From IMG/VR virus record IMGVR_UViG_3300030677_000007, positions 1-55,535 of that record: a DNA stretch of 55,535 nucleotides. One strand, given 5' to 3'. How positions within the stretch are numbered: position 1 is the stretch's first letter; each line of letters opens with the position of its first letter. The notes beneath the pieces are model-generated. The model did not search any database. It was not told the origin of the DNA and saw nothing but the letters and a program-made list of their open reading frames with translations. The position numbers and the translations under genes are program-made. This DNA comes from a virus. Positions 1 through 55,535 of this stretch are shown here, piece after piece.

Positions 1-143
1 CGCCATCCTTGGACGTGGTGCCGACGAACTTGAGCCTCATGGTGATCACCTTTCGCTCCTCCCGGCCGATTACCGGGCTGCTGCGCACGGTAGCGCCGGG
101 GCGCCGAGATACAGAAGACCGCCCCCGCCCGGCACTTCGCCAG
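1..143. repeat. Terminal direct repeat, left copy (circularity overlap)
   Basis: These 143 bases recur at the right end of the window with 141 identities. Both mismatches (positions 127 and 136 here) fall within the last 17 bases of the right copy, as expected of errors at a contig end. The copy repeats the first codons of the small minus-strand gene whose full form is at the right end, so bases 1-40 are not a separate gene. It is best explained as the overlap of a circular or circularly permuted molecule of 55,392 bp. Confidence 0.85.
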
Positions 144-16995: not shown

Positions 16996-17651
16996 CGCCC
17001 CCTCCTTCTGCGTCTGGTGATCCTCTTGGCACGGTCGGCGCGCGCGGCGATCCGGCCTCCGGCTCGGGCGCGGCGCGGCCTGGGGCCGCCCTGCTTTCCG
17101 TGATGGCGGACGATCTGCCAGTGGTGGTGTCGGTGGCCGGCCCGGGTCCAGTGGTGTCGGCGGTGCCCGCGCCGGTCGGGGTGGCGGTGGCCCTGGCGGC
17201 TGCGCCGCGCCTTCCGGTAGCCGGACCGCAGATGCCGCGGGGTGGGCAGCCGCCGCGACCGGTGCCGCGCCGTCGACCCGTGTCGGCGTGCCTTGAGCGC
17301 GGCGGAGATCTTCGCCCGGGTGGCCGCTGACAGCGCGTGGCCCTTGTGCCGGTGGTGCCGTCCCTTGAGAGCCGCGGAGATCTTCGCCCGCTCGGCAGCC
17401 GTGAGCTTGTGGCCCTTGTGATGCTTGCCCTTCAGCGCGGCGGAGATCTTCGCCCGCTCCGCAGGAGTCGGCTTGTGGCCCTTGCGGTGCTTCCCTTTCA
17501 GGGCTGCCGAGATCTTCGCCCGGGCGGCGGCCGACAGCTTGTGACCTTTGTGGTGCTTGCCCTTCTCGCGCTCGCTGATCTTCTTCCGGGCGGCGGAGGA
17601 GAGGTGGCGCTTGACCGTGTGCTTGGCGGCGGTGTGGACGCCCCAGGTCAC
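16992..17651 (-). CDS. Very basic NUMOD3-like repeat protein in the head-tail module
   Basis: 219 residues, GTG start overlapping the connector stop (GTGA). Residues 17-125 are five 22-24-residue repeats of the type AARAKISAALKGKHHKGHK, the pattern of nuclease-associated modular domain 3. The rest is an Arg/His-rich tail (RHHWTRAGHRHHHW, ending RRRRRGR). Almost no acidic residues are present, so it should bind DNA or RNA strongly. No GIY-YIG or HNH catalytic part is visible. Its coupling to connector and terminator genes suggests a virion or packaging role rather than homing. Function is not known. Confidence 0.7.
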   Translation of the reverse strand: MTWGVHTAAKHTVKRHLSSAARKKISEREKGKHHKGHKLSAAARAKISAALKGKHRKGHKPTPAERAKISAALKGKHHKGHKLTAAERAKISAALKGRHHRHKGHALSAATRAKISAALKARRHGSTARHRSRRLPTPRHLRSGYRKARRSRQGHRHPDRRGHRRHHWTRAGHRHHHWQIVRHHGKQGGPRPRRARAGGRIAARADRAKRITRRRRRGR

Positions 17652-27990: not shown

Positions 27991-27992
27991 CG

Positions 27993-28064
27993 TGGCGGGG
28001 GCCGGGTTCGAACCGGCGGCCTCCGGGACATGAGCCCGGCGCGCTACCTCTGCGCTACCCCGCA
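27993..28064 (-). tRNA. tRNA-Met (CAT)
   Basis: Folds as a full cloverleaf: six of seven acceptor pairs, D stem GCGC/GCGC, anticodon stem CCGGG/CCCGG with loop CTCATGT (anticodon CAT), and T arm GCCGG-TTCGAAC-CCGGC. No CCA is encoded. CAT could also be tRNA-Ile2 if the wobble C is modified to lysidine. It follows a strong terminator, so it must have its own promoter or be processed from read-through. Confidence 0.9.
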
Positions 28065-48389: not shown

Positions 48390-49643
48390 ATGCCCGGCTA
48401 TATCGAGGACCGCTGGATGTTCAAGCGGGTCAACAAAGAGACCGGCAAGCGAGAGCGCAAGGACCGGTACGGGCAAGGTCTGCGCTATCGCGTGTGCGGC
48501 ATTCCCGGCGTCAAGGATGAATCATTTGCGGTACTAGCCGACGCAAAGAACTGGTTGGCGAGCGCGCAGACGGATGTCCGGCGTGGTGTCTTCATCGACC
48601 CGGAGCTCGGCCAGCAGCTGCTGCGCGACTACTTCGAAGAGGTCTACTGGCCCGGAGTCGTCGTGTCCTTGGGCACGAGCCGCACGATGCTTGGCAAGAT
48701 CCGCAACCACATTCTTCCCCACCTGGGCCACTTGCCGCTCGCTGAGATCCAGGAGGAGCACATCCGCACCTGGGTCGCGACAGTCCGGCGCACCCAGGCC
48801 GTCAGCACTACTCGCGTGATCTACGACTACCTGTCGGCGATCCTCAACGCTGCGCACACATCAGGACGCAAGACGTCCAACCCGTGCTCAATCCGGGGCA
48901 TCAGGCCGAGGAAGCCCGGTAAGAAAGCGCGGGCTTTCCAGGCCGTACAGGTGAGTTCCCTGCGAGAAGAACTGCGACCCCGGGACCGAATCGTCCTGGA
49001 TCTGGGAATCGGGGCGGGCCTGCGCCAGGGCGAGGTACTCGGGTTCGCGCCGGAGGACATCGATGAGGCAGCGGGAATGCTCCACATCCGCCGGCAGGTG
49101 CAGCGCGACGGAGGCCGCGCCTACCTGAAGTTGCCGAAGGGCGACAAGGAGAGGGACGTGCCTCTGTCGGACGGGCTGCTGGCACGCTTGCGGGCGTACA
49201 TGGAGCAGTTCGAGCCGGTGGAGATGACCCTGCCGTGGATCGGCCCCGGCGGCCCTGGCGGCCCAGATGAGAAGGTGACGACCCGGCTGTTGGTCACGAC
49301 GCGCTACCGCAATGCGGTGGACGGCAGCAGCTGGGATCTCGACTCTTGGAAGCCGGCGCTCGGGCGCGCCGGCATCATCCGCGACCAGGGCCACGGCGTG
49401 CGCCGGGCGACGGCATCCCACCGAGGCAGCTGGCCCGGTACCCGCGAGTTCGGGTTCCACATTGCGAGGCACACCTACGCCTCTGTGCAGCTCCAGGCGG
49501 GCGAGAGCATCGTGGACTTGTCGGGCTGGCTGGGGCACGACGACCCCGGCTTTACGCTGCGGACGTACACTCACTTCATGCCCGGCGCGGGCGCCAAGGG
49601 CCGCACAGCGATGGACGCGTGGATGGCAACAGCGGCCGCGTAA
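48390..49643 (+). CDS. int: Tyrosine-family site-specific integrase
   Basis: 417 residues, ATG with GGAGGCGGAG upstream. Residues 1-60 form an arm-binding region, about 75-160 the SAM-like core-binding domain, 185-417 the catalytic domain. Catalytic set: Arg 212 (GAGLRQGE), His 357 and Arg 360 (FHIARHTY), His 383 (WLGHDD) and nucleophile Tyr 393 (RTYTHFMP). All are intact. It should integrate and, with the excisionase, excise the phage. The attachment site is expected close downstream. Confidence 0.95.
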   Translation: MPGYIEDRWMFKRVNKETGKRERKDRYGQGLRYRVCGIPGVKDESFAVLADAKNWLASAQTDVRRGVFIDPELGQQLLRDYFEEVYWPGVVVSLGTSRTMLGKIRNHILPHLGHLPLAEIQEEHIRTWVATVRRTQAVSTTRVIYDYLSAILNAAHTSGRKTSNPCSIRGIRPRKPGKKARAFQAVQVSSLREELRPRDRIVLDLGIGAGLRQGEVLGFAPEDIDEAAGMLHIRRQVQRDGGRAYLKLPKGDKERDVPLSDGLLARLRAYMEQFEPVEMTLPWIGPGGPGGPDEKVTTRLLVTTRYRNAVDGSSWDLDSWKPALGRAGIIRDQGHGVRRATASHRGSWPGTREFGFHIARHTYASVQLQAGESIVDLSGWLGHDDPGFTLRTYTHFMPGAGAKGRTAMDAWMATAAA

Positions 49644-50609: not shown

Positions 50610-50816
50610 TCACCCGGTCCAGATCGAGTCGTCCGGAGCAGCCGCTCCGCCCGACGGGCTCGGGGACGCGCTCGGCACAACGCTGTCGACGGTCCAGATG
50701 GAGTCGGACCGCGGGTGCGCGGGTCCGGCCGGCCGGGGCGCGAGGACCGCAATGGCGGCGACCGCAAGCACGGCCAGGGCCACCGCCGGATGGCGAAGAG
50801 CTCGGGACAACGGCAA
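50610..50816 (-). CDS. Small exported-peptide precursor with duplicated DSIWT motif
   Basis: 68 residues from a TTG with AAGGAG five bases upstream. Residues 1-10 are basic, 10-30 a hydrophobic signal or anchor segment (AVALAVLAVAAIAVLA), followed by PRPAGPAHP. The remainder carries SDSIWTVDS (about 36-45) and, at the extreme C-terminus, DDSIWTG, with a Ser/Pro/Ala linker between. This is the architecture of a secreted signalling-peptide precursor with two copies of the mature motif. It is divergent from a large HTH regulator, 186 bases away. Role as a signal is inferred. Confidence 0.65.
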   Translation of the reverse strand: MPLSRALRHPAVALAVLAVAAIAVLAPRPAGPAHPRSDSIWTVDSVVPSASPSPSGGAAAPDDSIWTG

Positions 50817-51002
50817 CTTGACTCCTTATTTCGCAGCGCAACTTCGCGAGCACAGCTGACTACCACAGTGATATGGCCGGGGCCTCGCACGTTGCGGCAT
50901 CGATTCCGTGCGATCTACAGTCAAGCACTGATAGAACTCGGTCAAGGCGTAGTGGCCGTGGGTTCCCGCCAGGGGGTTTTCCACCATGCAGAGAGATGAG
51001 CT

Positions 51003-52013
51003 ATGTCCGAATCGTCGGATTCGCAAAACGGCAGGCGCCTCGTATCCAGCAACGCTATCGAGGCGTACAGGATCATCGTTTCCGGTGGGGACGCCTCCGG
51101 CCAGCCGGAGGCCGTAGCCGAGCTCCGAGCCGCGGGGCTGGTGGTGCCCATGCCCGGCTCCACGGATCGACTCCTCGCCGTTGATCCACACGAGGCGCTG
51201 CCCCGGCGCCGAGAGGAGTTGCACCGCGCCGCACGTGCGCTGATGGACGACGCGGACGCCATCGTCCCCCTCCAGCGTGAGCTGACGGCTGCGTTCCGCA
51301 TCGCGCGAACCGACCTGTGGAGCCAGGGCATCGAGCGCCCACGGGACCTCGCAGAGGCCAATGTGCGGATCGCCGCAATCCTCTCCAACGCCGTCCAGGA
51401 TCTGCTCACCATGCAGCCCGGGCATCGCCAAGAAAGCACCCTGGAGGCGTCTGCCGACCGTGATTTCGACGCCCTGGAGAGGGGCATCAAGATGCGGACT
51501 CTCTACATGGATAGCGAGCGCGAATATCCGTACATTCAAAAATGGGTGGCCGAGGCAAATCAGCGTGGCGCTGAAATTCGTACCATGCCGCGCACCTTCA
51601 TGAGGGCCATCATTATTGACCAGCGTATTGCCGTCATTACCGACCGCACGAGGACATCCGGTCCCGGCGCTGTCCCTGGTGCCGCCGTCATCGTCCACGA
51701 CGTTGGCGTCGTCGGCGAACTCGTGAGCCAGTTCGAGCGGGAGTGGGCACAAGCGCGCCCATGGGACGGCCAGTCAAATTCGCAGGTCAACCGCCTTGGT
51801 GAGCTCTCGCAGGTTCAGCAGGACGTGCTACTGGGACTCGTGAGCGGGGCCACCCAGAAGAGCCTCGGGGCCCGACTGGGGATGAGCGTCCGCCAAATCG
51901 AACGTGCTATCGATGAAATCAAGCGAGTCATCGATCCATCCGGCGGCCCGGTCTCCGCTGCCCAGATGGGGTACTGGTGCGCCCGCATGCAAGCGCTGGA
52001 CGAGGTCAGGTAG
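51003..52013 (+). CDS. HTH regulator with PLD-like sensor domain (TrmB/LuxR type)
   Basis: 336 residues, ATG with GAGAG upstream. Residues 15-55 form a winged-helix region (NAIEAYRIIVSGG, AVAELRAAGLVVPM), then a helical linker. Residues 160-250 resemble the phospholipase-D-like sensor fold of TrmB-family regulators (MRTLYMDSEREYPYIQKW, AIIIDQRIAVITDRT). Residues 270-315 are a LuxR-type HTH (VQQDVLLGLVSGATQKSLGARLGMSVRQIERAI). The sensor part uses more A/T-ending codons than the rest, suggesting exchange. It probably reads the DSIWT peptide and controls a phage or host decision; that is inference. Confidence 0.75.
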   Translation: MSESSDSQNGRRLVSSNAIEAYRIIVSGGDASGQPEAVAELRAAGLVVPMPGSTDRLLAVDPHEALPRRREELHRAARALMDDADAIVPLQRELTAAFRIARTDLWSQGIERPRDLAEANVRIAAILSNAVQDLLTMQPGHRQESTLEASADRDFDALERGIKMRTLYMDSEREYPYIQKWVAEANQRGAEIRTMPRTFMRAIIIDQRIAVITDRTRTSGPGAVPGAAVIVHDVGVVGELVSQFEREWAQARPWDGQSNSQVNRLGELSQVQQDVLLGLVSGATQKSLGARLGMSVRQIERAIDEIKRVIDPSGGPVSAAQMGYWCARMQALDEVR

Positions 52014-55225: not shown

Positions 55226-55432
55226 CTACTCCTTGGGCGCGAAGCGCACCAGCAGGGACTTCGGGATGACGACGAAGGTCTCCCCGGCACGCACGTCCTT
55301 GAGCTGCGCCAGCGCCTCGGGGTCGTCGAGGATGTCACCCTGGACAACCATCCGCTCGGTGTCGTCCTCGATCTCGTACAGGGTCGGGCAGTCGCCATCC
55401 TTGGACGTGGTGCCGACGAACTTGAGCCTCAT
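55226..55432 (-). CDS. Small first protein of the DUF6879/Scr1 operon
   Basis: 68 residues. The ATG at 55432 has AAAGGTG seven bases upstream and is preferred to a start 48 bases further out. A beta-rich start (MRLKFVGTTSKDGDCPTLYEIED) is followed by MVVQGDILDDPEALAQLKDVRAGETFVVIPKSLLVRF in parts. A gene like this usually precedes DUF6879. The first 40 bases of the window repeat its 5' end. Confidence 0.8.
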   Translation of the reverse strand: MRLKFVGTTSKDGDCPTLYEIEDDTERMVVQGDILDDPEALAQLKDVRAGETFVVIPKSLLVRFAPKE

Positions 55433-55535
55433 GGTGATCACCTTTCGCTCCTCCCGGCCGATTACCGGGCTGCTGCGCACGGTAGCGCCGGGGCGCCGAG
55501 ATACAGAAGACCGCCCCCCCCCGGCACATCGCCAG
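55393..55535. repeat. Terminal direct repeat, right copy
   Basis: Same 143 bases as the left end. Differences are C instead of G at 55519 and A instead of T at 55528, near the physical end of the sequence and inside the arm of the terminator hairpin seen whole at 118-154. This supports a circular template with an assembly cut at a hard-to-read hairpin. Confidence 0.85.

Follow-up and report, generated by a model that had tools for sequence, protein, structure and literature searches.

Peptide-based communication between phages has been characterised in Bacillus phages, with TPR proteins as receptors. In the arbitrium system (AimR-AimP-AimX), a temperate phage encodes an exported precursor with a short peptide at its C-terminus and, beside it, a dedicated DNA-binding regulator; the genes are co-directional, occupy a lysogeny-type position and specify many phage-specific codes. 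The RRNPP(A) systems (Rap-Phr, NprR, PlcR, Rgg) combine a small Sec-type precursor, with a basic N-terminus and a hydrophobic region, and an adjacent receptor of 250-500 aa, the presumed signal being the last 4-10 residues of the precursor (PMC10075063). Tandem peptide copies in precursors are also known from this group (PMC11343458). The archaeal regulators TrmB and TrmBL2 (PDB 3qph, 2f5t, 5box) join an N-terminal wHTH, a coiled coil and a PLD-like sensor, and known TrmB ligands are sugars.

The locus described here lies in a 55,535-nt stretch of DNA (the window), which is the IMG/VR virus record IMGVR_UViG_3300030677_000007. Genes for a terminase, portal, major capsid, tape measure, endolysin and tyrosine integrase were identified, and the carrier is a temperate actinophage with soil actinobacteria as hosts. 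About 1 kb past the integrase are two divergent genes, followed by a GntR/UTRA regulator. The pair is inside the phage genome, rather than in host flank, as indicated by a 143-bp direct terminal repeat. We conclude that the two genes most probably constitute a peptide-pheromone module, a peptide/receptor switch that may tune lysogeny. The features are as follows.

1..143, plus strand: terminal direct repeat, copy 1 (repeat comparison)
55393..55535, plus strand: terminal direct repeat, copy 2, 99% identical to copy 1
48390..49643, plus strand: tyrosine integrase, immediately preceding the pair, as it also does in L065, L066 and phage Chymera
50610..50816, minus strand: ORF for the putative signal-peptide precursor, 68 aa, TTG start, with counterparts in all viral relatives that have upstream DNA
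50822..50827, minus strand: Shine-Dalgarno sequence AAGGAG of the precursor gene, 5 bp before the TTG
50739..50786, minus strand: hydrophobic core of the export segment, AVALAVLAVAAIAVLA; relatives share the layout of K/R and hydrophobic residues
50691..50705, minus strand: DSIWT copy 1 (GACTCCATCTGGACC), residues 38-42
50616..50630, minus strand: DSIWT copy 2 (GACTCGATCTGGACC), residues 63-67, then Gly and stop
50817..51002, no strand: 186-bp divergent intergenic region, with the presumed promoters and regulator target
51003..52013, plus strand: proposed receptor/regulator, 336 aa (ORF, homologs, AlphaFold model)
51042..51182, plus strand: N-terminal wHTH, residues ~14-60 (AF2 secondary structure; TrmBL2 alignment from residue 10)
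51324..51770, plus strand: PLD-like sensor domain with a degenerate HKD motif, residues ~108-256 (Nuc and TrmB superpositions)
51798..51938, plus strand: C-terminal LuxR-type HTH, residues ~266-312 (weak NCBIfam FixJ match at 251-300; four helices in the model)

The first-pass annotation had reported a 68-residue precursor with a good ribosome site and two DSIWT copies, divergent from the regulator. Re-reading of the sequence returned the same precursor, strand, coordinates and gap exactly, and both the ribosome site and the two copies are present. The precursor begins with two arginines and a 16-residue hydrophobic stretch. Neither it nor the regulator is named by Pfam, NCBIfam or PHROGs, the regulator passing no family in any of the three.

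The locus shares with arbitrium its occurrence in a temperate phage, the exported precursor with a C-terminal short peptide, the adjacent dedicated DNA-binding regulator, the lysogeny-type position and the many phage-specific codes. Unlike arbitrium, the genes are divergent, the receptor combines TrmB/PLD-like and LuxR HTH parts, the code takes the form D-x-x-W(-x), usually in 2-3 copies per precursor, and the hosts are actinobacterial. No counterpart of AimX was identified. As in RRNPP and arbitrium systems, a small precursor with a predicted export signal is encoded beside the receptor (186 bp away). The TPR-repeat receptor that marks those systems is absent (AF2 model, pLDDT 90), so the locus is not RRNPP or arbitrium by descent, though the anatomy matches; the receptor fold is unrelated to that of RRNPP(A) receptors, and the system occurs in Actinomycetota. 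Relative to TrmB and TrmBL2, the regulator has gained a LuxR HTH, and a peptide gene is linked to it. Proteins homologous to the regulator are annotated by PGAP in Streptomyces as 'LuxR C-terminal-related' regulators, with no peptide partner named. We found no description of the system in the open-access papers of PMC. These comparisons suggest phage peptide communication that uses a receptor and signal family unrelated to the known ones. The recurrence of the pairing in dozens of related viruses points to a kind of virus-to-virus chemical signalling that had not been described before. A second, unrelated receptor/signal family in actinophages would mean that such signalling arose more than once.

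Pairing of the two genes in related genomes had been set beforehand as a test of the reading. Regulator homologs were identified in 49 distinct viral contigs, 44 of which have upstream DNA, and a divergent small exported ORF ending in D-x-x-W(-x) is present in all 44. The initial viral scan had returned 18 contigs, all with a motif-bearing ORF, and later scans brought the number to 49. The pairing was seen first in plasmid homologs, where divergent small ORFs annotated as 'hypothetical protein' encode DSAWG twice, DTTWG three times, DTTWG twice and DTGWG three times. As a single-protein query, the window regulator found no relatives in viral or genome contigs, nor in cultured phages by tblastn; alignments and a closer query recovered them.

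In a strict automated blind test of the closest regulators, 33 of 36 have a motif-bearing exported ORF alongside, vs 55 of 20,000 anchors placed at random in those loci (0.3%) and 22 of 17,000 shuffled upstream regions. Among the three misses, L009 encodes DTTWG twice and was lost by the start rule, in L104 a frame with DSGWG lies further out, and L101 has none. The reverse test, in which all viral contigs were scanned for ORF ends encoding DTxWG-stop, gave 31 stretches; each exported precursor adjoins a regulator, the stretch L194 ending early on a contig (L017/L072) that has one. The pairing of precursor and regulator is therefore real and beyond chance. The proportion with a peptide ORF among more distant chromosomal regulators, in bands of falling score, is 9/36, 10/67 and 1/30. 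As these lower-scoring homologs often have no D-x-x-W ORF, the regulator family can function without an adjacent peptide, and the peptide is a hallmark of the phage and plasmid clades and of some chromosomal clades (Streptomyces, and Nocardioides with DSSWG/DTSWG).

Streptomyces chromosomes often hold clusters of two or three TrmB/LuxR regulators (G001:C1:3453928-3455971; G004:C155:21585-24497; G005:C3:87372-90293), mostly without a recognisable D-x-x-W peptide. In three Nocardioides loci (L042, L044, L052), small exported ORFs ending in DSSWG/DTSWG lie downstream of, and convergent with, the chromosomal regulator, and these extend the system past Streptomyces and phages.

The first-pass annotation had proposed a DSIWT-type motif; this holds for the window, and the motif of the family is wider, D-x-x-W(-x). 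The tetra- or pentapeptide usually forms the final 4-5 residues of the precursor, and in most precursors it lies at the very C-terminus by sequence. There are 1-4 copies per precursor, usually 2-3, with the last at or near the C-terminus, and 32 codes were seen. All copies share their third code residue in 37 of the 41 multi-copy precursors (10,000 shuffles: mean 7.1, maximum 17). Codon differences between copies are synonymous in 37 cases vs 8 that are non-synonymous, and include AGC/TCC serine switches. The two DSIWT copies of the window likewise differ synonymously in the serine codon (TCC vs TCG), which indicates that the peptide, and not DNA alone, is kept. The copies are thus identical at the protein level under selection, as a multi-copy pheromone precursor should be. 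The extra Gly after the second copy in the window counts against the pheromone reading. Some precursors end at W (DSVW, DSTW), with an internal copy that runs on, which suggests that the mature signal may end where the precursor ends.

On a receptor tree of 55 pairs and 31 codes, only 32 code changes are needed (minimum 30, shuffled mean 43.7), and the window groups with L011 (DTGWN) and L066 (DSVWG) (95/91). The code is, by these sequence comparisons, constant within a precursor and varied between loci, tracking receptor phylogeny. A pheromone code predicts just this combination of identity within precursors and diversity between loci. We consider it very likely that the two genes are a signal-receptor pair. 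A chance juxtaposition, in which a random hydrophobic ORF lies next to an ordinary regulator, draws on the small size of the ORF and nothing else; it is refuted by conservation (pairing, control rates, copy identity and synonymous changes), and its probability is negligible.

Divergent regulator-target pairs are common, and the small protein could be an exported effector, acting in superinfection exclusion or as an antimicrobial, with its gene controlled by the regulator through another ligand. In favour of this explanation, TrmB-type PLD domains are known to bind sugars (PDB 2f5t). It sits poorly with the pattern of conservation, as the tetra- or pentapeptide alone is conserved and the rest of the precursor varies freely, and as the code diversifies with receptor phylogeny and repeats identically within the precursor. 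Next to the pair in the window, no gene for modification or immunity was seen. We regard the effector explanation as very improbable.

The first-pass annotation had described the regulator as a wHTH, a PLD-like sensor and a LuxR HTH, and this architecture is borne out by the predicted fold; the gene is real. An AlphaFold2 model built on 58 homologs (mean pLDDT 90) has a long helix at residues 62-106 after the wHTH and a four-helix C-terminal HTH spanning ~266-335. The best Foldseek matches are archaeal TrmBL2 (E 8.7e-12) and TrmB. Superposition of the sensor part gives Z 16.7 with Nuc (rmsd 2.5 A, 138 residues) and Z 14.6 with the sugar-binding domain of TrmB (TrmB-type comparisons, Z 14.6-17.3). 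A wHTH joined to a PLD-like sensor domain, the arrangement that characterises TrmB, is thus present in the predicted fold; the model contains no TPR array, and the protein has no Pfam TPR match. The modelled fold, with a coiled coil between the wHTH and the sensor as in TrmB and TrmBL2, is TrmB-like, not TPR. In the HKD motif the catalytic His is replaced (F199-x-R201) and D206 is kept, so a sensor fits better than an enzyme. Homologs are widespread at 25-39% identity, and P139, R142, G161, Y168, R201 and W248 are invariant in 55 of them.

It is likely that the signal is read inside the cell by the PLD domain. By analogy with established RRNPP biology, the precursor would be exported, proteases would free the peptide, and a host oligopeptide permease is assumed to import it. 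In the cytosol, the peptide would bind the PLD-like sensor domain, where the conserved arginines R142, R153, R160, R165 and R201 could grip the invariant Asp and the C-terminal carboxylate. Once bound, the peptide would alter how the regulator holds the operators of the divergent promoter. In this way, peptide released during earlier infections or by resident prophages may tip the phage into lysogeny, much like arbitrium in Bacillus. The direction of the effect, more signal giving more lysogeny, is put forward with somewhat less than even confidence.

The peptide might instead be read at the cell surface or only inside the producer, with the adjacent regulator not the direct receptor. Leaderless micro-ORFs with the same codes, found in receptor-less phages (below), suggest that cytosolic production may suffice in some cases. 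We consider this reading improbable, as code and receptor sequence travel together over the 55 pairs and no histidine kinase or transporter gene adjoins the window pair or the Chymera pair. Comparison of the convergent DTWWG receptors gave no convincing residues that co-vary with the code; the candidate specificity residues 42, 74, 131 and 299 are mostly outside the sensor domain and were rejected as unconvincing.

The order of integrase, then divergent peptide and regulator, is shared by the window, L065, L066 and Chymera, a cultured phage of S. venezuelae. Chymera encodes, in order, an annotated immunity repressor, an integrase, a DPGWG precursor (gp30, MRMGQRVIKIVTAVLFSAAAVVGVTATAQADPGWGRSAPEVTTTVTPTPSEPTNDPGWG) and the receptor (gp29). 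In many predicted prophages the contig stops just past the peptide gene, which places the module at the prophage edge. From this position we give even chances to control of lysis-lysogeny as the output of the peptide-receptor pair. The peptide could be a real signal with another output, such as plasmid copy number, transfer, superinfection exclusion or host development. Members of 85-94 kb include the phage-plasmids of S. janthinus (NZ_CP134214) and S. ambofaciens (pSAM1), both with major capsid and tail genes and the latter also with terminase and ParAB; phage-plasmid members carry transfer-like genes. The module is also present on other large plasmids beside biosynthetic genes (L005, L006) and on chromosomes, and hence is not tied to lysogeny. 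We nevertheless rate these other outputs as rather unlikely, as integrating phages place the module between the integrase and the prophage edge, the classical site of lysogeny control.

Strong expression in HT medium has been reported for pSAM1 (PMC11302927). Two test cases for the proposed peptide-pheromone module are at hand, namely Chymera with its host S. venezuelae and the pSAM1 element of S. ambofaciens ATCC 23877. Streptomyces, in which peptide signalling is poorly understood, would gain many readable codes, given the 32 seen. Two large Streptomyces plasmids carry homologs with DTGWG (three copies; L005) and DSAWG (L006) peptides; the first adjoins NRPS/MbtH genes and the second 2-ketoarginine biosynthesis genes. 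Peptide control of specialised metabolism is possible on these plasmids.

The intergenic DNA of relatives contains two conserved elements. The palindrome TGCGN6CGCA, a candidate operator, is present in 15 of 21 phage-plasmid intergenic regions vs 0.16 expected from shuffles, and in this clade it often occurs as a tandem pair, spaced 15 bp, shortly before the regulator gene (L071:7910; L074:7911; L075:7898; pSAM1 (NZ_CP012383) 24200). The tandem form occurs once in all 89.7 kb of pSAM1. From sequence and position, the tandem palindromes upstream of the receptor gene are the likely operator. L011 and L066 have a single perfect copy each. No intact copy is present in the intergenic region of the window, so no regulon is proposed for it; this absence counts against the module reading.

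Also in the phage-plasmid clade, between the peptide and receptor genes, is a conserved element of ~130 nt (L075:7726-7851; L007:1232-1359; L035:3753-3882; and 18 further loci). A GGGGCGYC/GRCGCCCC helix closes the element, which also contains CTGCTGCGA and a loop, CTGGCAGT, carried by a co-varying stem that averages 7.3 pairs (5.2 when arms are swapped between loci, maximum 6.6). The element has no Rfam match at gathering thresholds and possibly is a regulatory RNA. No such RNA-like element was seen in the window.

Leaderless micro-ORFs (MSD(D)TxWG-stop) with the same codes as the exported precursors were identified in about two dozen receptor-less phage contigs (L190, L192, L193, L197-L200, L202, L203, L205, L208-L210, L212, L215-L219, L222-L226). 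A search with the pattern RTGAGYGACNNNNNNTGGGGCTGA, in which the two code codons are free, gave 18 stretches from viral contigs, and each encodes MSD[T/A][A/T/G/W]WG-stop; the codes are DTAWG, DTTWG, DTGWG, DTWWG, DAAWG and DATWG. Most of the 18 show a clear ribosome site and, after the ORF, a hairpin resembling a terminator. Often the micro-ORFs overlap the stop of the upstream gene by 4 bp, this gene being DUF6221-like in several cases, and three related micro-ORFs carry two codes in tandem. A receptor was found in none of the 24 micro-ORF virus records examined (one has a weak HTH-only match), and a 37-nt query against cultured phages yielded no micro-ORFs.

One sequenced genome contains both kinds of element. 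A 59-kb receptor-less prophage (L225; IMGVR_UViG_2933660794_000002) encodes a VSDTGWG micro-ORF at 342-365, and an 88.8-kb phage-plasmid (L025; IMGVR_UViG_2933660794_000001) encodes a precursor with two copies of DTGWG; these co-resident elements have a matching code. Tentatively, there may be a D-x-x-W signalling economy, in which temperate phages and phage-plasmids carry code-specific peptide/receptor pairs, and micro-genes of receptor-less phages make the same peptides within the cell and so act on the receptors of co-resident elements, forcing or jamming them. We treat this second layer as a lead and not as a conclusion.

Other features of the window include five direct repeats with a 96-nt period at 2125-2700 (61-73% identical to the reference), an 80-nt unit present four times, spaced 66-72 nt, within a minus-strand ORF region at 17282-17565, and a tRNA-Met (CAT) gene on the minus strand at 27992-28064.
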